From contig CAJPFI010000021.1 in NCBI GenBank assembly GCA_905339295.1, forward strand, positions 62,001 through 126,000: DNA of 64,000 bases. The letters are read 5' to 3'. The notes under the pieces are model-generated. The model made no database searches. It saw only the letters and a list, made by a program, of their open reading frames with translations, and had not been told where the DNA came from. Positions 1 to 18,951 of this stretch are shown here, in pieces; within the stretch, counting starts at the first letter, position 1, and the number at the start of each line of letters is the position of its first letter. Origin of the DNA: Burkholderiales bacterium (lineage in GTDB: Bacteria; Pseudomonadota; Gammaproteobacteria; Burkholderiales; Casimicrobiaceae). Made by a program: the position numbers and the translations under genes.

Positions 1-664
1 CGTGCTCGATCAGCACGATCGTCGTGCCGTACTGCTCGTTCACGTCGAGCACGAAGCGGCACATGTCCTGCTTTTCCTCGACATTCATTCCGGCCATCGG
101 CTCGTCCAACAGCAGCAGCGAGGGTTCCGCCGCGAGGGCGCGGGCGAGCTCGACGCGCTTCTGCAGGCCGTAGGGAAGACGGCCGACCGGCGTCTTGCGG
201 ATCGACTGGATCTCGAGGAAGTCGATCACCTCCTCGATCTTGCGGCGGTTCTCGAGCTCCTCCCGGCGCGCGCGCCCGACGTGGATCGCCTGCTCGACCA
301 CGGTCCCCTTCATGCGGAGATTGCGCCCGGTCATGATGTTGTCGAGCACGCTCATGCCCTTGAAGAGCGCGATGTTCTGGAACGTCCTCGCAATGCCCGA
401 CACCGCGGCGTCGTGCGGGACCATGTTGCGCCGGACCTTGCCGCGAAACGTGATGGTCCCCTGCTGCGGACAGTAGACGCCGTTGATCACGTTGAGCATC
501 GAGCTCTTCCCGGCCCCGTTCGGACCGATGATGGCCCGGATCTCGTGCTCGCGCACGTCGAAGCTCACTTCGATGAGCGCCCGGACCCCTCCGAAGGCGA
601 GCGAGATGCCCTCCATCCTGAGCATCTCGCCGCCGGGCAGACGGTCGCGCGGGCTCGACGGCAT
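1..664 (-). CDS. livG: ABC transporter ATPase, LivG type (3' part missing)
   Basis: Nucleotide-binding subunit of a branched-chain amino acid (HAAT) type importer; it hydrolyses ATP on the cytoplasmic side to drive uptake. Visible motifs are Walker A (GPNGAGKSS), the LivG-typical segment GIARTFQNIALFKGMSVLDN, the signature region LPYGLQKRVELARALA and Walker B LLLLDEPMAGM. The reading frame runs off the left edge, so the C-terminus is missing. The ATG at 664 lies 4 bases after the acyl-CoA ligase stop, so the two are one transcript. LivH, LivM and LivK are encoded at 15534-18951 on the other strand. The second ATPase (LivF) is not in the window and may lie further left. The cargo is inferred from context to be a carboxylic acid and not necessarily an amino acid. 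Confidence 0.92.
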   Translation of the reverse strand, partial: MPSSPRDRLPGGEMLRMEGISLAFGGVRALIEVSFDVREHEIRAIIGPNGAGKSSMLNVINGVYCPQQGTITFRGKVRRNMVPHDAAVSGIARTFQNIALFKGMSVLDNIMTGRNLRMKGTVVEQAIHVGRARREELENRRKIEEVIDFLEIQSIRKTPVGRLPYGLQKRVELARALAAEPSLLLLDEPMAGMNVEEKQDMCRFVLDVNEQYGTTIVLIEH

Positions 665-668
665 GGGA

Positions 669-2609
669 TCAGCCGGCAGCCGGAGCCGCGGCGCCGAACG
701 TCTGCGCCGTCTCGATACGAATGTCGGCCGCGACGATCCCGGTGCGTCCGTCCTCGAATCGCACCAGTGTCTCGACGTGCTGGACCGTCCGGCCCTCGTA
801 GAGCGCCTCGACCAGCGTGCCGTATTTCTCGGAGACGAAGCCTCGCCGCACCTTGCGCGTGCGCGTCAGCTCGTCATCGTCGGGATCAAGCTCCTTGTGC
901 AGCACGATGAAGCGGTGCACCTGCGATCCTGACACCGCAGCCTCTCTCGCGAGCTCGGCATTGACCTTCTCGACGCACTCCCGGACGAGGTCCCTCACCT
1001 CGGCCTTCTGCGCGAGGTCCGTGTAGCCCGAGTACGCCAGGCCGCGGCGCTCGGCCCAGTTGCCGACCGAGCTCATGTCGATGTTGACGAACGCGCAGAC
1101 CATCTCGCGGCCATTGCCGAACGCCACTGCCTCCTTGATGTGCGGAAAGAACTTGAGCTTGTTCTCGATGTAGTTGGGCGCGAAGAGCGTGCCGCTCGCG
1201 AGCTTGCCGACATCCTTGGCGCGATCGATGAGCTTCAGGTGGCCGTGCTCGTCGAAGAAGCCGGCGTCCCCGGTGTGGAAGTACCCTTCCCCGTCGATCG
1301 ACTCCATCGTGGCATCCGGCCGCTTGTAGTACTCCTTCAGGAGCATCGGACCACGCACCAGCACCTCCGAGCTTTCGGCGATACGCAGATCGACTCCCGG
1401 AGCGGGCCGGCCGACCGTGTCGAGCTTCACCTCGCGATCATGCTGCAAGCAGGTGTAGGCGCAGGTCTCGGTGGATCCGTAGAACTGCTTCAGGTTCACG
1501 CCGATCGACCGGTAGAATCTGAACAGGTCGGGACCGATCGCGGCCCCCGCCGTGTACGCGACGCGTATGCAGCTCAGGCCGAGCACGTTGCGCAGCGGGC
1601 CGTAGACCAGCAGGCTCCCCAGCCAGTACTTGATCCGGTCGGCGATCGGGACGGGCGAACCGTCCAGGACTTGCGCACCGCATCGTCGCGCGACCGCCAT
1701 GCAGCGGTCGAACATCCACCGCTTGAGTGCGCAGGCGTCCTCCATCCGGATCATGACCTGAGTCAGCACGTTCTCGAAGATGCGCGGTGGGGCGAAGTAG
1801 TAGGTCGGGCCGATCTCGCGCAGGTCCGTCATCACCGTGTCGGCCGATTCGGGGCAGTTGATCGTGAAGCCCGCCACGAGCCAGTTGACGTAGGAGAACA
1901 GGTGGTCGCCGACCCACGCCATCGGGAGGTAGGCAAGCACGCGGTCGCGAGGATTCAGCCCGTCGAATCCGCACGCGCCGCGCGCCGCCACCAGGAATGC
2001 GCCGTGCGTCTGGCACACTCCCTTGGGCCTTCCGGTGGTGCCCGACGTGTAGAGGATGATCGCGACGTCGTCCGCACTCCCCTTGGCGATTTCCTCCTCG
2101 AAGAACCGTGGATGGGCCGCCTCGAACTCGCGGCCGATGCGCTGGAGCTCGTCGAGCGCGACGATGCCTTCGTAGTTCCGGAGCCCGCGCGGGTCGTCGT
2201 AGTAGATGTGCTTGAGCGTACCGACCTGCGGCGCCGCTTCGATCAGCTTGTCGACCTGCTCCTGGTCCTCGACCACCGCGTAGACGATCGCGGCGTCCTT
2301 GAGGACGTAGACGAACTCGGCCGCCGGCGCGTCCTGGTACATCGGCACGGGGATGCCGCCAAGCGCCTGCGCCGCCGCCATCGCGAAGTAGAGCCGCGGG
2401 CGGTTGTCACCGACGATCGCCAGGTGCATGCCGCGACCGAACCCCTGGACCGTGAGGCCGCAGGCGATCGCGCGAACCTCGTCGGCGACCTGCCGCCACG
2501 TCCAGACCTGCCAGATGCCAAGGTCCTTTTCGCGCACGGCCGGACGGTCGCCGCGCGCCTGGACCTGCTGCAGCAGCAGGCCGGGAAGCGTGTCGCGTGA
2601 AGGAGTCAT
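669..2609 (-). CDS. AMP-dependent acyl-CoA ligase (long-chain/aryl type)
   Basis: Adenylate-forming ligase of 646 residues that would activate a carboxylic acid to its CoA thioester in the cytoplasm. Seen: the phosphate loop ILYTSGTTGRPKGV, the adenine motif YGSTETCAY, and YFHTGDAGFF with LIDRAKDVGK in the hinge and C-terminal region. The ATG at 2609 gives an N-terminus (MTPSRDTLPGLLL) that begins just before the conserved domain; an upstream in-frame start at 2744 adds 45 unlikely residues. The gene sits 141 bases after the crotonase gene and 4 bases before livG. Ligases of this kind are often embedded in Liv clusters of Betaproteobacteria that import aromatic or branched acids. The substrate cannot be read from the sequence. 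Confidence 0.9.
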   Translation of the reverse strand: MTPSRDTLPGLLLQQVQARGDRPAVREKDLGIWQVWTWRQVADEVRAIACGLTVQGFGRGMHLAIVGDNRPRLYFAMAAAQALGGIPVPMYQDAPAAEFVYVLKDAAIVYAVVEDQEQVDKLIEAAPQVGTLKHIYYDDPRGLRNYEGIVALDELQRIGREFEAAHPRFFEEEIAKGSADDVAIILYTSGTTGRPKGVCQTHGAFLVAARGACGFDGLNPRDRVLAYLPMAWVGDHLFSYVNWLVAGFTINCPESADTVMTDLREIGPTYYFAPPRIFENVLTQVMIRMEDACALKRWMFDRCMAVARRCGAQVLDGSPVPIADRIKYWLGSLLVYGPLRNVLGLSCIRVAYTAGAAIGPDLFRFYRSIGVNLKQFYGSTETCAYTCLQHDREVKLDTVGRPAPGVDLRIAESSEVLVRGPMLLKEYYKRPDATMESIDGEGYFHTGDAGFFDEHGHLKLIDRAKDVGKLASGTLFAPNYIENKLKFFPHIKEAVAFGNGREMVCAFVNIDMSSVGNWAERRGLAYSGYTDLAQKAEVRDLVRECVEKVNAELAREAAVSGSQVHRFIVLHKELDPDDDELTRTRKVRRGFVSEKYGTLVEALYEGRTVQHVETLVRFEDGRTGIVAADIRIETAQTFGAAAPAAG

Positions 2610-2750: not shown

Positions 2751-3560
2751 TCAGTTGAAGTGCGAGAAGTCGGCCTTGCGTTTTTCGAGGAACGCCGCGA
2801 ACGCCTCCTTGGCCTCGGCGGACGCCAGCCGCGCCCGAAACTCCGCGGACTCCGTCCTGATCGCGTCCTCGACTTCGGCGCGGAACGCGCGCCGCATCAA
2901 TGCCTTCGATACACGGACGGCGACAGGCGGCTTCGTCGCCAGCTTGCGCGCTTGCGCGGCCGCATGCGCGAGCACATCGCCGTCGGACAGCACGGCCCCG
3001 ACGATCCCGCACGAGGCGGCCGTTGCCGCGTCGAAGGGTTCGCCCAGCAGCAACAGCTCGGCGGCACGCGCGTGTCCGACCATGCGCGGAACGAGCACGC
3101 TCGACCCGGCCTCGGGGCAAAGACCTAGATTCACGAACGGAAGTGCGAAGACCGCGCCCTGCCCCGCATAGACCAGGTCGCAGTGCAGGAGCATCGTCGC
3201 CCCGACGCCGATGCAGGCGCCGTTCACGGCGGCCACGATCGGCTTCGAGGCCGAGCTGATCGTGCGAACGAACCTAAATGCCGGATGGCCATCGTCGAGC
3301 GCGGGCTGCCGCAGAAAGTCCTGGAGGTCATTGCCGCTCGTGAACACGTTCGGCTGGCCGTGCAGCAGAACGGCCCGTACCTCGGACCGGCGCTCCGCCT
3401 CCTCCAGCGCCGAAGTCAACCCCTCGTACATCGCGACGGTCAGCGCGTTCTTCTTCTCCGGCCGGCGCATCTCGATGTCGAGCACGCCGTCTGCGACCGA
3501 GACCACGATGTGCGCGGACTCGCGCCCGCCCTCCGCCGTCGCCACCGTTGGCGCCATCAT
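2751..3560 (-). CDS. crotonase-family protein (enoyl-CoA isomerase/hydratase-like)
   Basis: Protein of 269 residues with the crotonase fold; the CoA oxyanion-hole regions NVFTSGNDL and ACIGVGATM are visible. The first catalytic Glu of enoyl-CoA hydratase (in the QPE motif) is replaced: the matching segment reads FALPFVNLG. The later segment LCPEAGSSVLVPR is typical of delta3-delta2 enoyl-CoA isomerases. It is therefore more likely an isomerase, or a hydratase-like enzyme with altered chemistry, than a plain hydratase. The start codon (ATG 3560, or 3557) overlaps the stop of the B12-binding subunit by 4 bases, which implies translational coupling. A canonical hydratase is encoded separately at 13891-14673. 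Confidence 0.85.
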   Translation of the reverse strand: MMAPTVATAEGGRESAHIVVSVADGVLDIEMRRPEKKNALTVAMYEGLTSALEEAERRSEVRAVLLHGQPNVFTSGNDLQDFLRQPALDDGHPAFRFVRTISSASKPIVAAVNGACIGVGATMLLHCDLVYAGQGAVFALPFVNLGLCPEAGSSVLVPRMVGHARAAELLLLGEPFDAATAASCGIVGAVLSDGDVLAHAAAQARKLATKPPVAVRVSKALMRRAFRAEVEDAIRTESAEFRARLASAEAKEAFAAFLEKRKADFSHFN

Positions 3561-3970
3561 TCGGCGTGAACGCGCCGTGGACGCACGTTCGCGCGGATGA
3601 ACTCGACGACCGAGTCCGCGGACGAGCCGGGCCCGAAGATCCCCTTGACGCCCATCTCCCGCATGCCCGCGAAGTCGCGTTCGGGGATGACGCCACCGAA
3701 CACGACGAGCACGTCCTCCTTGCCGTTCTCCTTCAGCCGCCGGGTAACCTCGCGGGCAACCGGCAGGTGGCCCTCGACCGAGCTCGAGACCCCGACGACG
3801 TCGACGTCCTCCTGAATCGCCGCGTCGAGGATCTCCTTCGGCTCGAGGAAGTTGATGAAGATCACCTCCATGCCCGCCTCGCGCAGCTTGGTTGCCAGGT
3901 AGCGCACGCCACGGTCGTGCGCCTCCATCGTGGTCTTGCCCAGCAGTACGCGAATGATCCGCTGATTCAT
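3557..3970 (-). CDS. B12-binding small subunit of acyl-CoA mutase
   Basis: Stand-alone cobalamin-binding domain of 137 residues, matching the C-terminal domain of methylmalonyl-CoA mutase. Seen: VDVVGVSSSVEGHL and VVFGGVIPERDF, both typical of mutase B12 domains. The base-off B12 motif normally reads D-x-H-x-x-G; here it is Glu16-Ala-His18-Asp-Arg-Gly21, so the cobalt-ligating His is kept but the Asp that tunes it is Glu. The ATG at 3970 (MNQRIIRVLLGK) is preferred because the conserved domain begins there. A two-gene mutase is the layout of 2-hydroxyisobutyryl-CoA and isobutyryl-CoA mutases. It lies 73 bases after the large subunit gene and overlaps the crotonase gene by 4 bases. Confidence 0.93.
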   Translation of the reverse strand: MNQRIIRVLLGKTTMEAHDRGVRYLATKLREAGMEVIFINFLEPKEILDAAIQEDVDVVGVSSSVEGHLPVAREVTRRLKENGKEDVLVVFGGVIPERDFAGMREMGVKGIFGPGSSADSVVEFIRANVRPRRVHAE

Positions 3971-4043
3971 CCTTGCGCTCTCCAGAACCGAAGTCGATGG
4001 CGCCCCGCCGGAGCGCCGCATTGATTGCGGGCAGCCCGTCCGC

Positions 4044-5798
4044 TCAATGCGGCGGCGCCCAGCCCAGGTGCGCCTTGAGCACGGCCATCAGCTCGCCCGT
4101 GGTCGCGTCGGCATCCGACGCCTCGACCATCGCCGGGATCAGTCCGCCGACCTCGCCCGCCGCGAACCGCTCGGTCGCCCGGTGCACCTCGGCCATCGCC
4201 GCCTCCCACTTCGAGAGATCGCGGTTCGCGCGCAGCGCGTTCACGCGTTCGATCGCGATGCGCTCGGACTCGGGGTTCACCCGGAACACCTCGACCTCCT
4301 GCGTCTCGTCCGACACGTACTTGTTGACGCCCACGAGGATGCGCTCCTTCGCGTCCACCAGGTCGCGCCAACGCAGCGCGCTCGCCTCGATCTGCGCACG
4401 GACGTAGTCGTGGCACTTGTGGTATCCGCCGCGCTTCTCGACCTCGTCGTAGATCTTCAGCGCAGCCGACTCGATCTGGTTGGTGAGCGCCTCGACGTAG
4501 TAGGACCCGCCCAGCGGATCGGCGACGCGCGTGAGGCCACTCTCCTCCTGGAGGATCTGCTGGATGCGCAGCGCCATCGTCGCCGAATGCTCGGTGGGAA
4601 TCGCCAGCGCCTCGTCGAACGTGCTGACCTCCATCGCCTGCACCCCCGCCAGCGCCGCGCCGAGTGCGTGCAGCGTCGTGCGGATCAGGTTGTTGAGCGG
4701 CTGCTGGGCTGTGAGCACCGCACCGGACGTGTGGGTATGGATCCGGACGTGCATGCTGCGCGTGTCGCGCGCCCCGAGCTCGTGGCACTTGCGCGCCCAG
4801 ATGCGGCGCAGCGCGCGGATCTTGCAGATCTCCTCGAAGAGGTCGTTCGCCTGCGAGATCTGAAACCCGAACCGGCCGAGAAACACGTCCGGATCGAGCC
4901 CTTTCGCAATGCAGCCGCGCGCGTAGTCGATGCCTGCCGCGACGGTGAACGCCACTTCCTGCACGGCGGTCGCGCCCGCCTCCTCCATCCCGTAGCCGAA
5001 CAGGTTGAGCGTGTTCCAGCGCGGCATCCGTTTCGTGCAGAACGCGATCAGCTCGGCCGCGAGGTCCATGCCGGCCTTGGGCGGGAAGCAGGTCATGCCG
5101 ACGTATGCGCTCTGGTAGTACCAGCTCATCGAGTTCCCGCCCAGCTTCTCCCACGGTACGCCGCGCCGGCGGGCATAGGCGAGGTAGTGCGCGAGCACCG
5201 GCAGGTTCTCGTAATACGAGATGTGGACGACGTTCATCCTGTCGAGGGGCAGGCCGTCGAACAGGCGCGCGTTGTCCTCGCGCGAGTAGACGGCCATCCC
5301 GCACTGCCCGACGCGACCCTCGGCGGCCGGATGGTCGGGGTCGAGCCCCTCGTGCGACACGAGGTCGTAGACGAGGTTGTAGAACGTATTGCCGAAGTAT
5401 CCGGTCATGCCCTGCGCCTGCAGGTAGTCCATCCGACGCCGCGTCTCCTCGGGCAGGCCGTACCCGATCACCGGCTGGTTCGCCCAGGGCATGAACTGGT
5501 ACTGCGCCGCATTGAGCCCGCGCGTGAACGGGAACACGCCCGGCGCGGCCAGCACGTTCTCGGGGGTGTCGGCGACATCGTGCGGGAAGTAGGCCGGCTT
5601 GACCGGGAGCCCGGAGTCCGTGCGCTGGACGTACGACGCCCCGTCGACGCCGAACTTCTTCGCGAGCTGGTCGAATTTCGCGCGCCATTCGTCCTCGAGC
5701 GCGCGCGACCTGGCGATGAACTCGGGCGAGAACGGCGTGACCCCCTCTGCCGGCGAGACCGGCATGTCGGACCGTGTGATCTTGTCAGTGGCCTGCAT
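4044..5798 (-). CDS. B12-dependent acyl-CoA mutase, large subunit (divergent active site)
   Basis: Substrate-binding TIM-barrel subunit (584 residues) of an adenosylcobalamin-dependent acyl-CoA mutase. The frame matches the methylmalonyl-CoA mutase family: FPFTRGLN, FDGLPLDRM, MPRWNTLN, EAGATAVQEVAFT, RIHTHTSGAVLTAQQPLNN and DPLGGSYYVE. The active site is unusual. Where methylmalonyl-CoA mutase has RPWTIRQYAG it reads MPWANQPVIG (Tyr89 becomes Val). The segment carrying Arg207 is NSMSWYYQSAYVGMTCFPP, with no Arg. The SGYH motif reads FGYG, so the catalytic His is Gly270. From family knowledge, loss of Tyr89/Arg207 means the substrate is not a malonyl-type acid; loss of the His is not a feature of the isobutyryl- or 2-hydroxyisobutyryl-CoA mutases I know. 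The reaction is unknown. Gene order with MeaB, ligase and beta-oxidation enzymes suggests rearrangement of a branched acyl-CoA. Confidence 0.9.
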   Translation of the reverse strand: MQATDKITRSDMPVSPAEGVTPFSPEFIARSRALEDEWRAKFDQLAKKFGVDGASYVQRTDSGLPVKPAYFPHDVADTPENVLAAPGVFPFTRGLNAAQYQFMPWANQPVIGYGLPEETRRRMDYLQAQGMTGYFGNTFYNLVYDLVSHEGLDPDHPAAEGRVGQCGMAVYSREDNARLFDGLPLDRMNVVHISYYENLPVLAHYLAYARRRGVPWEKLGGNSMSWYYQSAYVGMTCFPPKAGMDLAAELIAFCTKRMPRWNTLNLFGYGMEEAGATAVQEVAFTVAAGIDYARGCIAKGLDPDVFLGRFGFQISQANDLFEEICKIRALRRIWARKCHELGARDTRSMHVRIHTHTSGAVLTAQQPLNNLIRTTLHALGAALAGVQAMEVSTFDEALAIPTEHSATMALRIQQILQEESGLTRVADPLGGSYYVEALTNQIESAALKIYDEVEKRGGYHKCHDYVRAQIEASALRWRDLVDAKERILVGVNKYVSDETQEVEVFRVNPESERIAIERVNALRANRDLSKWEAAMAEVHRATERFAAGEVGGLIPAMVEASDADATTGELMAVLKAHLGWAPPH

Positions 5799-5834: not shown

Positions 5835-7028
5835 TTACTCGCAGAGCTCGACGAGGGCCGCGACTCCCATGCCGCCCCCCGCACCGATCGTGGCCACGCC
5901 GTATCGCGCGCCGGTGCGGCGCATCGCGTGGATCATCGTGACAACCGTGCGCACGCCGCTGCACCCGACCGGATGCCCAAGCGCGATGCCGCCGCCGAGC
6001 GGATTCACGCGGTCGAGGCCGATGCCGAGCTCGCGGCATGACGACAGCACGACCGACGAGAACGCCTCGTTGATTTCCCACCAGCCGATGTCGGACGGCC
6101 GGAGCCCCGCTCGCTTCAGCACGAGGCTCGCCGCTGGCGCCGGGCTCATGCAGATCAGCCTCGGGTCGACGCCCACGCGCGCGGTCGACAGGACGCGCGC
6201 CAACGGCTTCACGCCCAACGCATCGGCCTTCTCGCGGGACATGAGCATTGCCGCAGCGGCGCCGTCGCTCACCCCGGACGCGCTGCCCGCCGTGACCGTG
6301 CCGTCCTCGCCGAATGTCGGCGCGAGCTTGGACAGCGCCTCGAGGTTGCAGTCCCGGCGCGGATGCTCGTCCACGAGAAATTCGATCTCGCCCTGGCGTC
6401 GCTTGACCGTCAGCGGGACGATCTCGTCCCGGAACAAACCGCCGTCGATCGCCTTCACCGCGAGCGCGTGCGACCGCTGCGCGTACTCGTCCTGCTCGCG
6501 GCGCGATATCGAGTAGACCTTCGCGACGTGGTCGGCGGCCATGCCCATGTTGAACCGCCCGTAACGGTAGGTCGACGCCGACCAGGTCGACTCCTCGAAC
6601 TGGTCGACGACCTCGCTGTTCCCGCGGCGCGTCCCCCACCGGTGGCCGTGCAGCAGGAACGGGATGCCGCTCATGCTCTCGGTCCCGGCGGCGATCACGA
6701 CGTCCGAGTCGCCCTGCGCGATCTCGCGCACCGCGCAGTTGAACGCCTCCAGCGAGGAGCCGCACGCGGCGTTCACCGCGGTGCCGGAGACGGAGAACGG
6801 GAACCCGGCCTCGAGCGCGCAGAAGCGCCCGATGTTGAGCGCCTGCGACGTCTGGTACACCTGGCCGACGATCACCGTTTCGATGGCCTCCGCGGAAACG
6901 CCCGCGCGCGCGACCACCTGCTGCAACGGCGTCCGAACGAGCTCGTGAGCGGGCACGTCGCGCAACGTACCGCCGAACGTGCCCTGCGCCGTCCGGCAAC
7001 CCGCCACGACCACGACTTCACGCTTCAT
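5835..7028 (-). CDS. thiolase (acetyl-CoA acyltransferase family), CxG Cys missing
   Basis: Thiolase of 397 residues, expected to cleave or form 3-oxoacyl-CoA. The nucleophile motif NAACGSSLEAF, the segment EINEAFS and the GGGIALGHP motif are present. The second catalytic Cys, normally in CIGGGMG near the C-terminus, is replaced: the segment reads TIGAGGGMGVAALVE. A Cys does occur in GHPVGCSG, a position where some ordinary thiolases also have Cys. I prefer ATG 7028 (MKREVVVVAG) because GAGG lies 6 bases upstream; a GTG at 7040 overlapping the dehydrogenase stop is the alternative. Second member of the leftward operon to act on a 3-oxoacyl intermediate, directly after the dehydrogenase. Confidence 0.88.
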   Translation of the reverse strand: MKREVVVVAGCRTAQGTFGGTLRDVPAHELVRTPLQQVVARAGVSAEAIETVIVGQVYQTSQALNIGRFCALEAGFPFSVSGTAVNAACGSSLEAFNCAVREIAQGDSDVVIAAGTESMSGIPFLLHGHRWGTRRGNSEVVDQFEESTWSASTYRYGRFNMGMAADHVAKVYSISRREQDEYAQRSHALAVKAIDGGLFRDEIVPLTVKRRQGEIEFLVDEHPRRDCNLEALSKLAPTFGEDGTVTAGSASGVSDGAAAAMLMSREKADALGVKPLARVLSTARVGVDPRLICMSPAPAASLVLKRAGLRPSDIGWWEINEAFSSVVLSSCRELGIGLDRVNPLGGGIALGHPVGCSGVRTVVTMIHAMRRTGARYGVATIGAGGGMGVAALVELCE

Positions 7029-7036: not shown

Positions 7037-7966
7037 TCACTTGAGTTCGATCCCGTAGTAGTCGTACCAGCCGCCGCGGCTCCCGGGCTTCAGGCCCGGA
7101 GCCCCTCGAAAGCCGGATGCGAACACCTTGCGCGCGACAGGCGGGATCGAATAGCGCTCGCCGAGCGTCTCGTGCAGGTACTCCTGCGCGTGGTACCAGG
7201 CGTCGAACGACGCCGTCCTGTCGAGCAGCTCGAACACGCCCATCGGCCAGCCAAGCCCTGTCTTCACCATCTCGTCCACGTCCTGGATCCCGCAGATGCC
7301 CTCCTGGACCGCGCGCATCGCCTCCGCTGCGAAGATGTTGACGAACCGGGTCATGAAGAACCCGGGCGAGTCACGCACGACGACGGGCTTCTTGCCGATC
7401 ACTGCGAGGTAGCCGACGATCCGGTCGACCGCCCAGGACGCCGAGCGGTCCGCGCGCGCGACCTCGACCAGCGGCATCACGTTCGACGGATAGAACCAGT
7501 GCGCTCCGACGAGCCGCTCGACCTTGGCGAGCGCCCGGCCGAGCTCGCCGATCATGATCGAGGACGTATTGCTCGCGATCACGGCGTCGGGAAGGGCCGC
7601 CGACTCGATCTCGCGCAGCACCTCGATCTTCCGGTCGACGATCTCCGGAACACTCTCGAACACGATCTGCGCGTCGCGCACGCCTTCGGCAATGTCCAGC
7701 GTCGGCCGCAGGCGCGCGAGCGCCCGTTTCATGTCCGCGGCGTCCAGCTTCCCCTTGCGAACGGCGCCGTCGAGTCCGAACGGGCCCGCGCGCACCAGCG
7801 AGAGTCCGTGATCGAGCGACTCGCGCCGGCGCGCGACGAGGCGCACTTCCGCCTCCGGCGCGCCGAGCAGGCATGCGATCACGATGCCGTGACCCATCGA
7901 CCCGGCGCCGCCCACCACGGCCACTCGCTCGACCGGCGCCTCGTTGCCTGTTCCGGGATCGCTCAT
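7037..7966 (-). CDS. 3-hydroxyacyl-CoA dehydrogenase
   Basis: NAD-dependent 3-hydroxyacyl-CoA dehydrogenase of 309 residues that oxidises 3-hydroxyacyl-CoA to 3-oxoacyl-CoA. Seen: the Rossmann motif VVGGAGSMGHGI near residue 17, the catalytic Ser/Asn region ASNTSS, the catalytic His in GAHWFYPSNV, the partner Glu in PLVEV, and SPGFFMTRFVN where the family usually has SPGFVVNR. The C-terminal helical domain contains DEMVKTGLGWPMGVFELLD. It sits 13 bases after the MeaB gene and overlaps the longer thiolase start by 4 bases, so it feeds the thiolase directly in a beta-oxidation sequence. Confidence 0.93.
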   Translation of the reverse strand: MSDPGTGNEAPVERVAVVGGAGSMGHGIVIACLLGAPEAEVRLVARRRESLDHGLSLVRAGPFGLDGAVRKGKLDAADMKRALARLRPTLDIAEGVRDAQIVFESVPEIVDRKIEVLREIESAALPDAVIASNTSSIMIGELGRALAKVERLVGAHWFYPSNVMPLVEVARADRSASWAVDRIVGYLAVIGKKPVVVRDSPGFFMTRFVNIFAAEAMRAVQEGICGIQDVDEMVKTGLGWPMGVFELLDRTASFDAWYHAQEYLHETLGERYSIPPVARKVFASGFRGAPGLKPGSRGGWYDYYGIELK

Positions 7967-11428: not shown

Positions 11429-12613
11429 ATGAGCAACCAAGTGATCATCGCCGGCGTCGGCATGATTCCGTTCACCAAGCCCGGGGCCGGCGAGCCCTAC
11501 ACGGCCATGGCGTCGACCGCCGCGAAGGCCGCGCTCGCCGACGCTCGATGCTCCTACGAGAACGTCGAGCAGGTGTATGCAGGCTTCGTCTACGGCGACT
11601 CGTGCAGCGGCCAGCGCGCGGCCTACGACATCGGGATGACCGGCGTGCCGATCGTCAACGTCAACAACAACTGCGCCACCGGCTCGACCGCGCTCTTCCT
11701 GGCGCGGCAGGCGGTCAGGAGCGGCGCCGCGGACTGCGTGCTCGCGCTGGGGTTCGAGCAGATGGGGGCCGGGGCGATCGGGACCAAGTTCAACGACCGG
11801 CCGACGCCGTTCGATCGCTTCGACGCCGAGACCGACGCGATGGTCGGCATGCCCGAGGTCGCCCTTGCGTTGCGGTACTTCGGCGGTGCCGGCATCGCCC
11901 ACATGAAGAAGTACGGCACCCGTCTCGAGACATTCGCGAAGATCCGCGCGAAGGCAAGCCGGCATGCCGCTCGCAATCCGTTCGCCATGCTGCGCAAGGA
12001 AATGACCGCCGACGATGTCCTGGCGTCCCCCACGATGATTCCCGGCGTGATGACGCGGCTCATGGCGTGCCCGCCGACCTGCGGCGCGGCCGCTGCCGTG
12101 ATCGTCTCCGGGCGCTACGCCGCGATGCACGGCATTCCGGCGACGGTCCGGATCCGGGCTCAGTCGATGACCACCGACACGGCCAGCACGTTCGAGTCTC
12201 GCGACATGATGCGGCTTGTCGGATACGACATGGCCCGCGCTGCGGCACACCAGGTCTACGAAGCGGCAGGCGTCGGCCCGGAGGACATCGACGTGGTCGA
12301 GCTCCACGACTGCTTCGCGCACAACGAGCTCATCACCTACGAAGCACTCGGCCTGTGCCCGGCGGGCGGCGCCGAGCGGTTCGTCGACGAAGGCGAAAAC
12401 ACCTATGGCGGCCAGGTGGTCACCAACCCGTCGGGCGGACTGCTGTCCAAGGGCCACCCGCTCGGGGCCACCGGACTCGCGCAGTGCTACGAGCTGACCC
12501 AGCAGCTGCGGGGCGCCGCGGGCGCGCGACAGGTCGACCACGCGCGTCTCGCGCTGCAGCACAACCTGGGGCTGGGTGGCGCGTGTGTCGTGACGCTCTA
12601 CGAGGCCGCATGA
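11429..12613 (+). CDS. SCP2-type thiolase (lipid-transfer protein/thiolase)
   Basis: Protein of 394 residues of the SCP2-thiolase branch. Seen: the nucleophilic Cys in VNNNCATGSTAL, the branch-specific HDCFAHNEL motif, SKGHPLGATGLAQ and a C-terminal LGLGGACVVTLY. Enzymes of this branch cleave 2-methyl-branched 3-oxoacyl-CoA in animals and take part in sterol side-chain and acyl-CoA breakdown in bacteria, which fits a branched substrate. The ATG at 11429 follows GAGGACCTCCG. It is the first gene behind operator C; 48 bases separate it from the acyl-CoA dehydrogenase gene. Confidence 0.9.
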   Translation: MSNQVIIAGVGMIPFTKPGAGEPYTAMASTAAKAALADARCSYENVEQVYAGFVYGDSCSGQRAAYDIGMTGVPIVNVNNNCATGSTALFLARQAVRSGAADCVLALGFEQMGAGAIGTKFNDRPTPFDRFDAETDAMVGMPEVALALRYFGGAGIAHMKKYGTRLETFAKIRAKASRHAARNPFAMLRKEMTADDVLASPTMIPGVMTRLMACPPTCGAAAAVIVSGRYAAMHGIPATVRIRAQSMTTDTASTFESRDMMRLVGYDMARAAAHQVYEAAGVGPEDIDVVELHDCFAHNELITYEALGLCPAGGAERFVDEGENTYGGQVVTNPSGGLLSKGHPLGATGLAQCYELTQQLRGAAGARQVDHARLALQHNLGLGGACVVTLYEAA

Positions 12614-12661: not shown

Positions 12662-13807
12662 ATGACCGCGTACCGCTCTCCCTGGTCCGACGACGAGCTC
12701 GACGCGTTCCGCGACGCCGTCCGCCGTTTCGCGAGCAACGTGCTCGCGCCGCGAGAGCCGTCGTGGCAGGCCGCCCGGCGCGTCGATCCTGCGTCGTGGC
12801 GGGAGGTCGGCGCGATGGGGATGCTCCTCGCGGGCGTGCCGGACGCCTACGGCGGCGGCGGCGGCACGTTCGCGCACGACTGCGTCGTGTTCGAGGAGCT
12901 CGAGTACGCGGGCGTGGTGAGCCTCGGCAAGCACGTCCACGAGATCTGCGCGCACTACGTGCTGGCCCACGGCACCGAGGACCAGAAGCGACGCTGGCTG
13001 CCGCGCATGGCGCGCGGCGAGCTTGTCGGTGCCATCGCGATGTCCGAACCGTCGGCCGGATCCGACCTCCAGGGCGTACGGACGCGCGCCGTGCGCGCCG
13101 GGGGCGAGTACGTGCTGAACGGCTCGAAGACGTTCATCTCCAACGGGCAGATCTCCGGCCTGATCTGCGTCGTCGCGAAGAGCGATGTCTCGGTCGGCGC
13201 GAGCGGCATCTCGCTCATCATGGTCGAGACCGACGAGCTCGCGGGATTCCGCCGCGGTACGACGCTGGACAAGCTGGGCCTGCACGGCCAGGACACCTCG
13301 GAGCTGTACTTCGACGACTGCCGCGTTCCGGCCGAGAACCTGCTGGGGGGCACCGAAGGCGCCGGTTTCGCACAGCTCATGGAGCAGCTTCCCTACGAGC
13401 GGGCGATCATTGGCGTGGTCGCCGTCGCGGCGATGGAGCGGGCCGTGCGCCTGACCACCGACTACGCCCGCGAGCGTCGCGCGTTCGGCAAGGCGCTGGT
13501 CGACATGCAGAACACGCGCTTCGCGCTTGCCGAGGCGAAGACGATCGCACATGTCGGGCGCGTCTTCATCGACTCCTGCATCGAGCGCTGCATCGCCGGC
13601 ACGCTCGACACCGCCACCGCGTCGATGGCCAAGTGGTGGCTCACGGACATGCAGTGCCGCGTGATCGACGAATGCCTCCAGCTGCACGGCGGCTACGGCT
13701 ACATGCTCGAGTATCCGATCGCGCGCATGTACGCGGACGCCCGCGCGCAGCGGATCTACGGCGGCACCAACGAGATCATGAAGGAAATCATCGCCCGCGC
13801 GCTCTGA
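12662..13807 (+). CDS. acyl-CoA dehydrogenase
   Basis: FAD-dependent dehydrogenase of 381 residues introducing a 2,3-double bond into an acyl-CoA. Seen: the signature AMSEPSAGSDLQGV, NGSKTFISNG, YARERRAFGKAL and the C-terminal LQLHGGYGYMLEYPIARMYADAR. The Glu of medium-chain enzymes (YEGTSEI) is Gly here (YGGTNEIM), so the catalytic base is probably the Glu in LPYERAIIG, as in isovaleryl-CoA and long-chain dehydrogenases. That placement is typical of enzymes acting on branched substrates. It would use electron-transfer flavoprotein, which is not encoded in the window. Confidence 0.93.
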   Translation: MTAYRSPWSDDELDAFRDAVRRFASNVLAPREPSWQAARRVDPASWREVGAMGMLLAGVPDAYGGGGGTFAHDCVVFEELEYAGVVSLGKHVHEICAHYVLAHGTEDQKRRWLPRMARGELVGAIAMSEPSAGSDLQGVRTRAVRAGGEYVLNGSKTFISNGQISGLICVVAKSDVSVGASGISLIMVETDELAGFRRGTTLDKLGLHGQDTSELYFDDCRVPAENLLGGTEGAGFAQLMEQLPYERAIIGVVAVAAMERAVRLTTDYARERRAFGKALVDMQNTRFALAEAKTIAHVGRVFIDSCIERCIAGTLDTATASMAKWWLTDMQCRVIDECLQLHGGYGYMLEYPIARMYADARAQRIYGGTNEIMKEIIARAL

Positions 13808-13890: not shown

Positions 13891-14673
13891 ATGGCGTTCG
13901 ACACCCTGCTGCTCGACGAGCGGGAGCCCGGCCTCTGGCTCCTCACGCTCAACCGCCCCGAGACGCTCAATGCGCTGACGCCGCCGATGCTCGACGAGAT
14001 CGCGTCGGCGCTGCGCGTGGTCGAGGCGGGCGGCGGACGCTGCCTGCTGGTCACGGGCGCAGGCGGCCGGGCGTTCGCCGCCGGGGCGGACGTCGGCGCG
14101 ATGCGCCCCATGTCCGCGCTGGAATGCCGCGAGTTCGCGCTGCTCGGACACGCGACGATGCGCGCCGTCGAGAACACGCCGTTCCCGGTGATCGCGCTGG
14201 TCGACGGCTACGCGCTCGGCGCCGGCTGCGAGCTGGCGCTCGCCTGCGATTTCATCGTCGCGTCGTCGAAGGCGGTGTTCGGACTTCCCGAGGTCGGCCT
14301 GGGCATCTGCCCGGGCATGGGCGGCACGCAGCGCCTGACCCGTGTCGTGGGCAAGTCGCTCGCGATCGAGCTCGTGTGCACGGGGCGCCAGGTGTCCGCG
14401 GACGAGGCGCAGCGAATCGGCCTCGCCAACCACGTCGTCGATGCCCACGACCTGATGGCCAGGGGGCTCGACATCGCGAGGACGATCGCTGCCAGGGCGC
14501 CGGTCGCCGCGAGGATGGCCAGGCGGCTGATCCGGCACGGTCAGGACATCGACCTCGCCCATGCCAACGCGCTCGAGGTCGAGGCGTTCGCGGTGCTGTG
14601 CTCGACCGAGGATCGCCATGAAGGCATGGCAGCATTCGCCGAGCGGCGTGCCGCCCGCTTCGTCGGGCGGTGA
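13891..14673 (+). CDS. enoyl-CoA hydratase
   Basis: Crotonase-family hydratase of 260 residues. Both catalytic Glu are visible: one in FGLPEVGLGICPGMGGTQRL and one in SLAIELVCTG. The oxyanion-hole segments FAAGADVGAM and YALGAGCELALACD are intact. It should hydrate the product of the acyl-CoA dehydrogenase encoded 83 bases upstream, giving a 3-hydroxyacyl-CoA for the dehydrogenase at 7037-7966. The ATG at 13891 begins the conserved domain (MAFDTLLLDER). Confidence 0.93.
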   Translation: MAFDTLLLDEREPGLWLLTLNRPETLNALTPPMLDEIASALRVVEAGGGRCLLVTGAGGRAFAAGADVGAMRPMSALECREFALLGHATMRAVENTPFPVIALVDGYALGAGCELALACDFIVASSKAVFGLPEVGLGICPGMGGTQRLTRVVGKSLAIELVCTGRQVSADEAQRIGLANHVVDAHDLMARGLDIARTIAARAPVAARMARRLIRHGQDIDLAHANALEVEAFAVLCSTEDRHEGMAAFAERRAARFVGR

Positions 14674-14872
14674 TCGCCATGGTCGAATCTGCCGTCTCGC
14701 ACAACATCGATCGCGCACGACGCGCGGACGGGGGCTCCGCGGTGCCGACGCGAGCGTTCCGCAGCCGGCCGCGACCGCTGAAATGTCGGGCTCCCGCAGG
14801 CGTCCACGCGATCGGCGAGCGTGGCGTTGCCGGAAGCCCGTGGTCCACGACGTCGCATTGGCAGGGCCGCAC

Positions 14873-15337
14873 GTGGATCTGCGCGAGCTCGAGCAGCTCT
14901 TCGACATGATCCGCGGCTCGGGGATCGCCGTCCTCGAGATCGAGGATCCGACTCGGCGAATTCGGGTGAAATGCGCGCCGGCCGGTGAAACCGGCGCGCA
15001 GCGGCCGAATGCGCCTCGCGTCGCGTCCGCCGTGCCGTCGACTCCCGTCGCCTCGCATCCCGTAGTCGACCCGCAGGCGCCGGCCACCGAAACGCGCCCC
15101 GCCCGGCACGTGGTCAGGAGCTCGCTGGTCGGAACGATTCACCGCGCGGTCGCTCCCGGAACGAGGCCCTTCGTCGACGTGGGCGATGCGGTCGAGGCCG
15201 GTTGCACGCTGTGCGTCATCGAGGCGATGAAGCTCAGGAAGGAAATTCACGCCGACCGGGCCGGCGTCGTCACCGAGGTCCTCGTCGACTCCGGGCAACC
15301 GGTCGAGTACGGCCAGCCGCTGTTCGTGATCGCCTGA
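14873..15337 (+). CDS. AccB-like biotin carboxyl carrier protein
   Basis: Protein of 154 residues matching acetyl-CoA carboxylase AccB in length and layout: an N-terminal helix-rich segment (VDLRELEQLFDMIRGSGI, like the start of E. coli AccB), a Pro/Ala-rich linker, then a biotinyl domain with VEAGCTLCVIEAMKLRK. The biotin-accepting Lys in EAMKL is present. GTG 14873 is preferred because AGGG lies 6 bases upstream and the protein then starts exactly where E. coli AccB does; GTG 14840 is an alternative. The only biotin carboxylase homologue nearby (9945-11309) looks inactive and no carboxyltransferase is present, so its partner is unknown. Confidence 0.85.
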   Translation: MDLRELEQLFDMIRGSGIAVLEIEDPTRRIRVKCAPAGETGAQRPNAPRVASAVPSTPVASHPVVDPQAPATETRPARHVVRSSLVGTIHRAVAPGTRPFVDVGDAVEAGCTLCVIEAMKLRKEIHADRAGVVTEVLVDSGQPVEYGQPLFVIA

Positions 15338-15385
15338 CGCCGCCCCGGCGACGCCGGCGTCCGGAGCGCCTCCAGTCAATTCGAG

Positions 15386-15421
15386 CAAGCGCTTGAATAA
15401 TTCGCGGACGGGTGCTAAGGT
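15386..15421 (+). promoter_or_regulatory. Promoter with operator copy D
   Basis: The palindrome CAAGCGCTTG (15386-15395) overlaps TTGAAT (15393-15398), followed after 17 bases by TAAGGT (15416-15421). The pair would transcribe livH, livM and livK. It is the fourth copy of the island-specific palindrome, placing the transporter under the same regulator as the enzymes. Confidence 0.68.
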
Positions 15422-15533: not shown

Positions 15534-16415
15534 GTGGAGTTCTTCTTCGAGGTGCTGATCGGCGGGCTGCTCGCCGGCGTCATGTACTCGCTCATCGCAC
15601 TCGGGTTCGTCCTCATCTACAAGGCGTCGGGCGTCTTCAACTTCGCCCAGGGCGCGATGGTGCTGTTCGCGGCGCTCACGTTCGTGAATCTCGTCGAGCG
15701 GGGCCTTCCCTTCTGGCTGGCGTTCGCCGCCACGCTTGCCGTCATGGCGCTCCTGGCCCTGCTCGTCGAGCGCCTGGTCCTGCGTCCCCTCGCGAACCAG
15801 CCCCCGATGTCGCTGTTCATGGCGACGATCGGGCTCGCCATCGTCATCGAGGGTGTCGGGCAACTGGTCTGGGGATCCAAGGCCTACGGCCTCGACCTCG
15901 GCATCAAGGACGTCCCTTTCGAGCTCGGCGGCGTACGCGTGAGCCAGTTCGACCTGTTCGCCGCCGCCGTCGCCGGAACGCTCGTGACGGCGCTCAGCAT
16001 CTTCTTCAGCCGCGCCGCCACCGGACGCGCGCTGCGGGCCGTGGCGGACGATCACCAGGCCGCGATGTCGATCGGCATCCCGCTGCCGCGCATGTGGCGC
16101 ATCGTCTGGGCCATCTCGGGCGCGGTCGCCCTCGTGACCGGACTGCTGTGGGGGTCGCGGCTGGGCGTGCAGTTCGGCCTCGTGGTGGTCGCCCTGAAGG
16201 CGCTCCCCGTCCTGATCCTGGGAGGATTCACGTCGGTGGCCGGCGCCATCGTCGGCGGCCTCATCATCGGCGCCTCCGAGAAGCTGGCCGAGATCTACCT
16301 GGGCCGGTACATCGGAGGCGGGATCGAGAACTGGTTCCCGTACATCTTCGCCATGCTGTTCCTGCTCGTGCGGCCGCACGGCCTGTTCGGCGAACGACGC
16401 ATCGAACGGGTGTAG
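15534..16415 (+). CDS. livH: Liv-type ABC permease LivH
   Basis: Inner-membrane permease of 293 residues for a branched-chain amino acid type importer. The start is typical of LivH (EVLIGGLLAGVMYSLIALGFVLIYKASGVFNFAQG region, residues 6-40) with about eight hydrophobic segments and a C-terminal LLVRPHGLFGERRIERV. GTG 15534 is chosen: GAGG lies 5 bases upstream and the first membrane helix follows at once. Three bases separate it from livM. It would pair with LivM and the LivG ATPase of the leftward operon. Confidence 0.93.
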   Translation: MEFFFEVLIGGLLAGVMYSLIALGFVLIYKASGVFNFAQGAMVLFAALTFVNLVERGLPFWLAFAATLAVMALLALLVERLVLRPLANQPPMSLFMATIGLAIVIEGVGQLVWGSKAYGLDLGIKDVPFELGGVRVSQFDLFAAAVAGTLVTALSIFFSRAATGRALRAVADDHQAAMSIGIPLPRMWRIVWAISGAVALVTGLLWGSRLGVQFGLVVVALKALPVLILGGFTSVAGAIVGGLIIGASEKLAEIYLGRYIGGGIENWFPYIFAMLFLLVRPHGLFGERRIERV

Positions 16416-16418
16416 CCG

Positions 16419-17486
16419 ATGTTCTACCGCGAAGCCGGCCAGTACAAGACAGCCTATGCGACGGACCAACGCATCTTCCCGATTCTCCAGGATCGGGCCG
16501 CCTTCACCGCGCTCATGGTCGCGGCGTTCGTCGTAATTCCGGTCACGGGCAACGATTACTGGTTCAACGGGCTGCTGATTCCGCTGCTCATCCTCTCGCT
16601 CGCGACGCTCGGACTCAACATCCTCACCGGTTACGCGGGCCAGATCTCGCTGGGATCGGCGGGCTTCATGGGCGTAGGCGCCTTCGCCGCCTACAACTTC
16701 ATGCTCCGCGTCGACGGAATGCCGATCCTCGGCAGCTTCGTCCTCGCCTCGCTGTGCGCGGCGCTCATCGGCGTGCTGTTCGGCCTCTCGTGCCACCGGA
16801 TCAAGGACTTCTACCTGATCGTCGCGACGCTCGGCTCGCAGTTCTTCATCGAATGGGTGCTGACCAAGTTCGCGTGGCTCACCGACTACAACCCGTCGGG
16901 CGTCATCACCGCGCAGAAGATCGTCATCCTCGGCGTCGCCTTCGACACGCCGATGCGGCGTTACCTGCTGGTCCTGACCATCGTCGTGCTGATGACGCTC
17001 GCCGCGAAGAACGTCATGCGCAGCGCCTTCGGCCGCAACTGCATGGCGGTTCGCGACATGGACGTCGCGGCCGAGGTCATCGGCATCAACGTCTTCCGGA
17101 CGAAGCTGACGGCGTTCGCGATGAGCTCGTTCTATTGCGGCATGGCCGGGGCGCTGTGGGCGTACGCGTACGTCGGGACGGTCGAGCCGCAGGCGTTCGA
17201 CCTCGACCGCTCGCTGCAGATCCTGTTCATGGCGATCATCGGCGGCCTTGGCAGCATCATGGGCAGCTTCCTCGGCGCGGCATTCGTCATGCTGCTGCCC
17301 ATCGTGATGAACATGGCGGGATCCGCCATGTTCGGGCACTCGATCGACGCCGGCATCGTCGCCAACGTCGAGCACATCATCTACGGCGCGTTGATCATCT
17401 GGCTGCTGATCGTCGAGCCGCACGGGCTGGTACGGCTGTGGCAGATCGGCAAGGAAAAGCTTCGGCTGTGGCCGTTCCCTCGGTGA
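16419..17486 (+). CDS. livM: Liv-type ABC permease LivM
   Basis: Second inner-membrane permease of 355 residues. Family features are LNILTGYAGQISLGSAGFMGVGAFAAY (residues 67-93), the cytoplasmic loop AVRDMDVAAEVIGINVFRTKL that contacts the ATPase, and the C-terminal EPHGLVRLW. About ten hydrophobic segments are visible. It follows livH after 3 bases and precedes livK by 130 bases. Confidence 0.93.
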   Translation: MFYREAGQYKTAYATDQRIFPILQDRAAFTALMVAAFVVIPVTGNDYWFNGLLIPLLILSLATLGLNILTGYAGQISLGSAGFMGVGAFAAYNFMLRVDGMPILGSFVLASLCAALIGVLFGLSCHRIKDFYLIVATLGSQFFIEWVLTKFAWLTDYNPSGVITAQKIVILGVAFDTPMRRYLLVLTIVVLMTLAAKNVMRSAFGRNCMAVRDMDVAAEVIGINVFRTKLTAFAMSSFYCGMAGALWAYAYVGTVEPQAFDLDRSLQILFMAIIGGLGSIMGSFLGAAFVMLLPIVMNMAGSAMFGHSIDAGIVANVEHIIYGALIIWLLIVEPHGLVRLWQIGKEKLRLWPFPR

Positions 17487-17616
17487 CGCGTGCGCGCGCG
17501 TCGTCCGGCGCGAGACGGCAGGGACCGGGTATCGATCGATGGGTTGGCCGGGCCTTCCGGCCTGATAGCGCGGATCGCAGAAAGCCGCGCGGTGCGTCCT
17601 TCAGGAGGAGTGAACG

Positions 17617-18951
17617 ATGAACGTGAGAATGTTGGTCAAGCGCTCGCTGGCCGGAGCGGCGCTGGGGCTTGCCGCGACCATGGCGCTTCCGGCCGGCGCG
17701 ACCCCCAACGAGCAGTACTTCCCGATGATCGGATGGCGCACCGGGCCGCTCACACCGCTCGGTGTCAACGTCGCCGCCGGCTGGATCGACTACATGGACT
17801 TGCTCAACAAGCGCGACGGCGGCATCAACGGCGTCAAGCTGACGTGGGAGGAGTGCGAGACCGCCTACAAGGTCGATCGCGGCGTCGAGTGCTACCAGCG
17901 CCTGCTGCGGAACGGCCCCACCGGCGCCTCGGCCTACAACCCGATCAGCACGGGCGTCGTCTACGCGCTGCTCGACCGGACCACGACGGACAAGGTTCCG
18001 ATCGTGACCATCGGGTCGGGGCGTACCGACACCACCGACGGCAGCGTGTTCCCGTTCGTCTTCCCGCTCGGGACAAACTACCTGTCGACGAACACGGTCA
18101 AGATCAAGTTCATCGGCATGCAGGAAGGCGGGATGGACAAGCTGAAGGGAAAGAAGATCGTCAACCTGCACATGGATTCTGCAGGCGGGCGCGAGACGAT
18201 CCCGCTGCTCGACGCGCAGGCCAGGAAGTATGGCTTCGAGGTCACCCACATCAGCGTCGCGATGCCCGGAAGCGAGCAGCAATCGGCATGGCTCGAGATC
18301 CGGCGGATCAAGCCGGACTGGGTGATCCTGCGTGAATGGGGAGTCGCTCCCGCCGTCGCGCTCAAGACGGCAGAGAAGACCGGGTTCCCGCTGAACCGCA
18401 TCGTCGGCGTACCGTTCGCCGGCACGGAGGACGATCTCATCCCCGCCGGCAGCTCGGCCAAGGGCTTCTACGTCGTTCACCCGATGCCGACCGGGGAATT
18501 TCCGGTGACGCAGGAGATCAGGAAGCATCTCTACGCCGGCGGCAACAAGGGCAATCTGCAGGACATGAGCCGCATGGGCCTCATCTACTACAACATGGGT
18601 CTCACCTACGGAGTCCTCAACACCGAGGCCGTGCGTACGGCGCAGAAGAAGTTCGGCAACAAGCCCCTGACCGGCGAGCAGATCCGCTGGGGGCTCGAGA
18701 ACCTCAACCTCGACGAGAAGCGGTTGAGGGAGCTCGGCGTCTGGGGGCTCGTGCAGACGATTCGCACCAGCTGCAGGGACCATGAAGGCGGAGGCGCGGC
18801 CAAGGTCTACCAGTGGGACGGAGCGAAGCTCGTCCAGGTGAGCGACTGGATCATGGCGGACAAGGCGATCACGCGTCCGCTGATCGAGGAGTCCTCCGCG
18901 AAGTATGCGAAGGAGAAGGGCATCACGCCTCGCGATTGCTCGAAGGAGTAG
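17617..18951 (+). CDS. livK: Liv-type periplasmic substrate-binding protein
   Basis: Periplasmic binding protein of 444 residues that captures substrate for LivHMG. A signal peptide is clear (MLVKRSLAGAALGLAATMAL followed by PAGA). The mature part has the type-1 binding-protein fold, with NKRDGGINGVKLTWEECE and KTAEKTGFPLNRIVGVPF. It is longer than amino-acid binding LivK proteins and resembles the versions found near aromatic or aliphatic acid catabolism genes. AGGAGG lies 8 bases before the ATG, the strongest ribosome site of the island, in keeping with the need for excess binding protein. Ligand unknown. Confidence 0.9.
   Translation: MNVRMLVKRSLAGAALGLAATMALPAGATPNEQYFPMIGWRTGPLTPLGVNVAAGWIDYMDLLNKRDGGINGVKLTWEECETAYKVDRGVECYQRLLRNGPTGASAYNPISTGVVYALLDRTTTDKVPIVTIGSGRTDTTDGSVFPFVFPLGTNYLSTNTVKIKFIGMQEGGMDKLKGKKIVNLHMDSAGGRETIPLLDAQARKYGFEVTHISVAMPGSEQQSAWLEIRRIKPDWVILREWGVAPAVALKTAEKTGFPLNRIVGVPFAGTEDDLIPAGSSAKGFYVVHPMPTGEFPVTQEIRKHLYAGGNKGNLQDMSRMGLIYYNMGLTYGVLNTEAVRTAQKKFGNKPLTGEQIRWGLENLNLDEKRLRELGVWGLVQTIRTSCRDHEGGGAAKVYQWDGAKLVQVSDWIMADKAITRPLIEESSAKYAKEKGITPRDCSKE

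Follow-up and report, generated by a model that had tools for sequence, protein, structure and literature searches.

A candidate TetR-controlled catabolic island with a remodelled B12-dependent mutase in a Burkholderiales bacterium

A stretch of 64,000 nucleotides from a Burkholderiales bacterium of the family Casimicrobiaceae (assembly GCA_905339295.1, contig CAJPFI010000021.1, positions 62,001 to 126,000; hereafter the window) carries at its left end a cluster of genes for a B12-dependent acyl-CoA mutase, its presumed partners and a Liv transporter. It is postulated that this cluster is an inserted, TetR-controlled catabolic island for an alpha-branched carboxylic acid without a second carboxylate, a tertiary 2-hydroxy acid of greater bulk than 2-hydroxyisobutyrate being the probable substrate; this reading is given a probability of about one half. 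It draws on features observed in the sequence, namely the gene identities, a common operator sequence, the insertion itself, a distinct mutase clade with an altered active site, and a conserved gene linkage. The original prediction for this DNA had proposed an undescribed island. In favor of that claim, the insertion is real and the mutase and its partners are altered, but the operator turned out to be of a kind already known.

A mutase clade with a remodelled active site

The large subunit of the mutase (4044..5798, minus strand) matches TIGR00641 (2.2e-138) and carries the TIM-barrel domain PF01642 (4.1e-152); the B12 domain PF02310 (1.6e-22) lies on a small subunit (3557..3976, minus strand; TIGR00640, 8.3e-34), and the pair thus has the domains of the superfamily. 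Human methylmalonyl-CoA mutase (MCM) is the best match in the PDB (E 1e-102), and the closest solved structures include 2-hydroxyisobutyryl-CoA mutase (HCM; 4r3u), with 32% identity in a structural alignment. The predicted structure, which is mediocre (mean pLDDT 62.1, pTM 0.65, low near the insert described below) and was used for the fold only, supports that fold, its best Foldseek hits being MCM. Family and fold are therefore those of MCM, but in the window the B12 domain is on a separate subunit.

One genome from each of 84,980 species was scanned for the exact peptides AAQYQFM or FGYGMEE, a requirement that misses more distant members. This yielded 12 related loci: eight betaproteobacterial records, three from Bacillota (including Sulfobacillus benefaciens) and one from Pyrinomonadaceae. 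Within the family, 5 of 64 genomes, counting the source genome, have the mutase at an identity of at least 82%. A phylum sample (398 genomes, E 1e-120) contained it in the source genome only, and an order sample (399 genomes, E 1e-110) in the source genome and G468, with a third match, in G573, that has HCM-type residues. Several of these sample matches are the same records as the 12 loci, G468 probably being the record of locus L039. In a plasmid collection, all mutase matches lie below 60% identity, the best reaching 39% among the matches listed (30 of 418 records).

Together with the window mutase, the 12 relatives form a clade of 13 sequences from Burkholderiales, Bacillota and Acidobacteriota, which has 100/100 support and a mean column identity of 79% across the three phyla. 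It stands apart from the MCM and HCM rows of the tree, the HCM clade likewise being supported at 100/100. Outside the clade, its nearest neighbour in the tree is a plasmid mutase from Sphingobium sp. WTD-1 (NZ_CP119128.1, L047; support 100/99); no large subunit of isobutyryl-CoA mutase or pivalyl-CoA mutase was included, long branches were flagged, and the deeper branching order is unsure. Among the titles and abstract openings listed in searches of open-access literature, none describes the clade, and a description may be in print elsewhere.

Nineteen active-site columns are identical among all 13 members of the clade. At MCM positions 82, 85, 87 and 89 the residues are Met, Ala, Gln and Val, with Met at 197, a residue other than Arg at 207 and Gly at 244 (MCM numbering). 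Consequently, Arg207, Tyr89 and His244 of MCM are missing in 13/13, and the MCM residue set is not found. In MCM, Arg207 and Tyr89 bind the carboxylate, and His244 matters for catalysis; Y89F and H244A mutants appear among PDB entry titles. With the pair that binds the carboxylate gone, a dicarboxylyl-CoA is disfavoured as substrate. The columns of HCM Asp117 and Ile90, presumably substrate contacts, read Val and Val, a loss that argues against 2-hydroxyisobutyryl-CoA itself. Furthermore, all 13 members share a 6-residue insert directly before MCM position 116, at an active-site strand. The smaller residues at the places of Tyr89 and His244 suggest a bulkier acid.

Other parts of the site are kept. 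Asn236, Arg283, His328 and Gln361, which we take to be CoA contacts, are present in 13/13, as is the cobalt-ligand His; the leading Asp of its DxHxxG motif is Glu in ten members, giving ExHxxG in the window, and Asp in three. Retention of these positions is expected of a working CoA-dependent B12 enzyme. In addition, a PduO-type adenosyltransferase is present in the genome, so that adenosylcobalamin is plausibly available.

Among 21 other loci in the active-site table, His244 is present in 19, the exceptions being L047 (Asn) and L015 (Asp), the latter an altered mutase on a 3-kb contig (G050:C322). The Sphingobium mutase, L047, also lacks Arg207, carries an insert in the corresponding position and sits on a long branch, but it differs from the window mutase in its 39% identity, in having Asn for His244, and in its carboxylase and AtuA-family neighbours. 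Its surroundings (5261-17005) hold MeaB, AtuA-family, biotin carboxylase and carboxyl transferase genes, with isovaleryl-CoA dehydrogenase just upstream and transposases nearby. The source genome has three more mutase-like genes, at C24:14000-15577 (L056), C24:53826-55403 (L057) and C6:192050-193594 (L058); two of them have other unusual active sites, and L056 adjoins a thiamine-pyrophosphate enzyme (PRK08199) and, by eye, PrpD-like and MeaB-like genes.

Conserved partners and a proposed pathway

The original prediction called for a search of other genomes for the same neighbourhood. In 11 of the 12 relatives (eight betaproteobacterial and three Bacillota records), a 3-hydroxyacyl-CoA dehydrogenase (HBD; 7037..7966 in the window, minus strand) and a thiolase (5835..7028, minus strand; TIGR01930, 1e-125) lie beside the mutase. 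The record of the twelfth, L044, starts 174 bases before the mutase and so has no upstream sequence. Judged by gene order, the linkage of mutase, dehydrogenase and thiolase is conserved across two phyla.

Both partners are themselves altered. Profile searches and alignments place the HBD in its family with two canonical Asn residues replaced by Tyr and Thr: the motifs HFFNP and PGFxxNR read HWFYP and PGFxxTR in 11/11 readable rows of 12, the HBD of L034 starting after the motifs. In the thiolase, the cysteine of the CxG loop is Gly in 12/12 rows, and the classical residue set is thus incomplete, with the nucleophile Cys and the NEAF and GHP loops present; within the GHP loop, 9/12 rows read Cys at a place that is Ala in the reference. 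In the plasmid collection, the HBD matched seven haloarchaeal records at E 1e-40 (35-39% identity), and the single such region inspected has no annotated mutase; the thiolase had no match there at E 1e-100.

MeaB, the GTPase chaperone (7980..8957, minus strand; TIGR00750, 2.7e-88), occurs in 6/12 related loci. Ligases similar to the long-chain-type AMP-forming acyl-CoA ligase of the window (669..2609, minus strand; Pfam AMP-binding, 9.5e-67) are found at 74-77% identity in L035, L036 and L038. More distant AMP-forming ligases are found in L041 and L043 (one in L041 Pfam-checked), and genes that look ligase-like by eye in L039, L040 and L045. The window's acyl-CoA dehydrogenase has no match at E 1e-5 in the 12 related loci, which are represented by stretches of 3.9-21.7 kb each. 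In the Bacillota loci L041 and L043, which are of Sulfobacillus type, the two AMP-forming ligases are adjacent, and a zinc alcohol dehydrogenase and a protein resembling aldolase II also lie near the mutase set (by eye; three L041 proteins Pfam-checked). In L040 (11802-12213), the coding sequence of the small mutase subunit changes frame, which may be an assembly error.

From these families, a pathway can be proposed. The acid would be taken up via LivFGHMK and activated with CoA by the FadD-like or the PaaK-like ligase. The two-subunit B12 mutase, with MeaB, would convert R-C(OH)(CH3)-CO-SCoA to the 3-hydroxyacyl-CoA R-CH(OH)-CH2-CO-SCoA, which the dedicated HBD would oxidise and the dedicated thiolase would cleave to R-CO-SCoA and acetyl-CoA. 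Since these stretches of the 12 relatives gave no hit for the acyl-CoA dehydrogenase, their shared product would be expected to join the route at the HBD. The conserved set (mutase, HBD, thiolase and usually ligase) fits best with a mutase product that is already a 3-hydroxyacyl-CoA, as in 2-hydroxyisobutyrate catabolism. It had been predicted that the mutase moves a branch to allow a full round of beta-oxidation; the conserved HBD and thiolase point to a 3-hydroxyacyl-CoA product instead.

In this genome, an extra block (all genes on the plus strand) follows. It encodes a biotin carboxylase-like protein (9945..11309), a SCP2-type thiolase/lipid-transfer protein (11429..12613; PRK08256, 4.8e-199; SCP2-thiolase type-1, PDB 6hsj, 4.8e-132) and an acyl-CoA dehydrogenase (12662..13807; Pfam domains, with NCBIfam matches below cut-off). 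These are followed by the enoyl-CoA hydratase Ech2 (13891..14673; PRK05809, 2.1e-79, below cut-off) and a biotin carboxyl carrier protein (BCCP; 14843..15337; TIGR00531, 6e-38, above cut-off) with an EAMKL biotinylation motif. The dehydrogenase, hydratase and SCP2-type thiolase, which have the same operator upstream, could degrade the leftover acyl-CoA. In L035, L036 and L038, the TetR gene and livH are only 250-560 bases apart, and the carboxylase-like/dehydrogenase block has therefore been added here or lost there. The proposed single gene set is in this respect not fully supported, the acyl-CoA dehydrogenase, second hydratase, SCP2-thiolase and AccB/AccC-like block lying outside the conserved core.

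Lys238, Glu288, Arg292 and Glu296 of E. coli AccC have catalytic roles in biotin carboxylase. In the carboxylase-like protein, Lys238, Glu276, Glu288, Asn290 and Arg292 are replaced by Ala, Asp, Ala, Val and Ser, and Glu296 by Ala; the wild-type Glu is taken from the 2c00 alignment, the other reference chain being a Glu-to-Ala variant. By these motifs, the residues of an active biotin carboxylase are lost, and the protein would be catalytically dead. A search of the other 63 family genomes at E 1e-140 found no counterpart of it. None of the island proteins scanned was recognised as a carboxyl transferase; on this ground and on the lost motifs, a complete carboxylase in the island was ruled out.

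Operator, insertion and remaining genes

The palindrome GCAAGCGCTTG has three forward matches and one reverse match in the 4,028,452-base genome; these fall at three places, all in the cluster, while its reversed control string has 27 matches. With up to one mismatch, a 16-mer version likewise occurs at three places genome-wide, all in the cluster, among them a fourth site (9071..9086, minus strand, one mismatch) in the gap that separates MeaB from the divergent TetR gene. The other sites lie upstream of the biotin carboxylase-like gene (AAGCAAGCGCTTGCTT, 9862..9877, symmetric), of the SCP2-type thiolase (11328..11343, plus strand) and of livH (15383..15398, plus strand). The symmetric site has two mismatches to the 16-mer, a level also met elsewhere in the genome; at two and three mismatches the matches are scattered genome-wide, with 66 strand matches in total, the control having 51. 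Each of the four sites is intergenic and lies at a promoter. The claim that a single palindrome type links the genes is therefore borne out, with three exact places and the one-mismatch site confined to the cluster.

The TetR-family regulator (9232..9813, plus strand) has a TetR_C_24 domain; its best solved relative is 4mxm (2.3e-40), and KstR2 is among its solved relatives (1.6e-17), not the closest. The exact core CAAGCGCTTG occurs in 6/12 related loci in seven copies, always beside a TetR gene (L035, L036 with two, L038, L039, L040 and L045). Excerpts of two papers give the AtuR operator core as AGCAAGCGCTTG (PMC9973270) and the KstR2 operator form as AnCAAGnnCTTGnT (PMC3068626). A palindrome with the core CAAGCGCTTG at target promoters, the mark of an AtuR/KstR2-type regulon, is what the cluster has, and its palindrome, as read from the letters, is of this known kind. 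The operator was accordingly rejected as novel, AtuR and KstR2 sharing its core. Operator core and TetR family are the same in those regulons, but the regulated genes differ, and the sites here are putative ones known from sequence. Taken together, the results support one catabolic block under one operator type, to which the regulator is predicted to bind.

This block of 22.7 kb is an insertion with an aminotransferase gene on its left and tRNA-Gly on its right. The aminotransferase flank and the tRNA-Gly/tRNA-Cys flank lie within about 110 bases on one contig in 16 of the 21 genomes of the same genus; among the exceptions, the flanks are 2.2 kb apart in G055, and no flank pair was found in G052, G053, G056 and G063. 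Seven closed sites were fetched and the flanks aligned with four. When the flanks are aligned with G050, where the site is closed, some five bases stay unassigned and the junctions fall at about C21:59468 and near window position 20177 (C21:82177), the right junction and tRNA-Gly (20231-20306) spanning 20177..20306 on the plus strand. In G051 the site is closed, and a different contig of that genome carries a copy of the cluster. By this comparison of flanks, the block is a real insertion. Unlinked genes were ruled out on these two grounds, an operator confined to the cluster and a block that is one insertion.

All genes named in the original prediction for 1-18951 are borne out by open reading frames and profile searches, the Liv permeases and ATPases by eye; the block reaches 20112 on the right and about 2.5 kb beyond the window on the left. 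The biotin carboxylase-like protein and a PaaK-like ligase left of the window had been absent from its list. Curated cut-offs were passed by TIGR00640, TIGR00641, TIGR01930, TIGR00750, PRK08256 and TIGR00531. Pfam domains are the basis for the AMP-dependent ligase, crotonase, HBD, TetR, biotin carboxylase-like protein, acyl-CoA dehydrogenase, LivK and metallo-beta-lactamase fold. The names LivG, LivH, LivM and LivF were assigned by eye, and some names of neighbouring genes in the relatives and other loci were given with a gene caller written for this analysis and by visual inspection.

Leftward, the order is MeaB, HBD, thiolase, large and small mutase subunits, the crotonase-fold protein Ech1 (2751..3560, minus strand; ECH_1, 1e-58; aligned with three close homologues), ligase and a LivG-like ABC transporter ATPase (2..664, minus strand), which is cut by the window's left end and has 87% identical homologues at the same place in L035 and L038. 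Further left, outside the window (locus L008), are LivF and then the PaaK-like ligase (L008:15552-16814). Rightward, TetR is followed by the genes of the extra block and then by four more on the plus strand. These are a LivH-like permease (15537..16415; start uncertain, maybe a few codons upstream; 82-85% homologues in L035, L036 and L038), a LivM-like permease (16419..17486; 79-80% in the same three loci), a LivK-like binding protein (17617..18951; Peripla_BP_6, 8e-34; homologues in 5/12 related loci) and a metallo-beta-lactamase-fold hydrolase (19087..20112; Lactamase_B, 1.5e-29), which adjoins livK in those three of the 12 loci as well. Outside the cluster, AT skew exceeds 0.2 across 6 kb at window 46001-52000.

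Alternative readings and significance

Several results weigh against the proposed route through a tertiary 2-hydroxyacyl-CoA. Missing steps could be supplied by general beta-oxidation enzymes encoded at other places in the genome, so that the absence of the dehydrogenase from the related loci counts for less, and the window itself has an acyl-CoA dehydrogenase. With the substrate contacts of HCM missing, a 2-hydroxy substrate is backed by the gene set, not by residues. Positions Ser285, Gln330 and Asn366 are changed in the clade, a CobA-type adenosyltransferase was not found in the search, and the operator core was not found in 6/12 related loci (L034, which spans just 3.9 kb, L037, L044 and the three Bacillota loci). 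In addition, His244 has become Gly and the thiolase lacks its CxG cysteine, and either enzyme may have lost or altered its chemistry; an extract of PMC11599936 reports that first-shell active-site changes inactivated a related HCM. These last results, the two replaced Asn residues of the HBD and the motif-dead carboxylase-like neighbour would fit a cluster that is no longer a mutase pathway, in which the mutase-, thiolase- and dehydrogenase-like proteins do another CoA-ester reaction or the mutase is a non-catalytic relic. This appears quite doubtful given the conservation across three phyla, MeaB in half of the loci and the cobalt-ligand His in every member.

The least improbable alternative, though still unlikely, follows the logic of pivalyl-CoA mutase: a quaternary 2,2-dimethyl-type acyl-CoA would be converted to a beta-methyl acyl-CoA and then dehydrogenated and carboxylated, as in leucine and acyclic-terpene breakdown. 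The Sphingobium mutase, with its similarly placed insert, is encoded among genes annotated as acyl-CoA dehydrogenase, isovaleryl-CoA dehydrogenase, biotin carboxylase, carboxyl transferase and members of the AtuA family, and the window itself holds an acyl-CoA dehydrogenase, BCCP and an AtuR-type operator. However, the island offers only the dead carboxylase-like protein and no recognised carboxyl transferase, the related loci lack the dehydrogenase block, and the conserved partners are HBD and thiolase rather than a carboxylase. A described pathway, 2-hydroxyisobutyrate catabolism by an HCM-type mutase, would use the same kinds of genes (ligase, both mutase subunits, MeaB, HBD and thiolase); HCM shares the two-subunit architecture and the close structural match, and the proposed CoA activation and rearrangement to a 3-hydroxyacyl-CoA resemble the ligase and mutase steps given in an extract of PMC13188929. 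Such an assignment is very unlikely: at 32% identity the two mutases fall in separate, fully supported clades, the Asp, Ile and His of HCM are all replaced, and rows with intact HCM residues occur in related genomes. The 6-residue insert and the dedicated, altered HBD and thiolase likewise set the window apart from HCM.

Finally, it is extremely improbable that the enzyme is a dicarboxylyl-CoA mutase of the methylmalonyl-, ethylmalonyl-, alkyl- or benzylmalonyl-CoA class, even with human MCM as its best PDB match, for the carboxylate-binding Arg and Tyr are missing throughout the clade. The iaa cluster for anaerobic auxin degradation, as excerpted from PMC8360864, would be an example of this class; it has a mutase, a CoA ligase and a binding protein in common with the window, the PaaK-like ligase, Liv binding protein and mutase resembling IaaB, IaaM and IaaGH. 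None of the island proteins scanned was recognised as a CoA-transferase, the sequence of IaaG lying outside the comparison. HCM-type, MCM-type and iaa-type assignments were set aside on active-site residues and gene content.

The proposed conversion of a bulky tertiary 2-hydroxy acid leads to a more tentative hypothesis. In this model, the clade could be a new specificity class of B12 acyl-CoA mutases that work with neither His244 nor the carboxylate-binding Arg and that rearrange tertiary 2-hydroxy- or quaternary acyl-CoAs with bulky groups (isoprenoid, alicyclic or aryl). With the co-adapted dehydrogenase and CxG-less thiolase, it may form a horizontally moving module that removes isopropenyl- or tert-alkyl-derived carbons. 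Should the mutase prove active, this family could rearrange carbon skeletons without the conserved active-site His, and the clade would represent a new substrate class for enzymes whose natural specificities are few. The clade would further provide a genetic marker for microbes that degrade branch-blocked acids and a new scaffold for engineered mutases.

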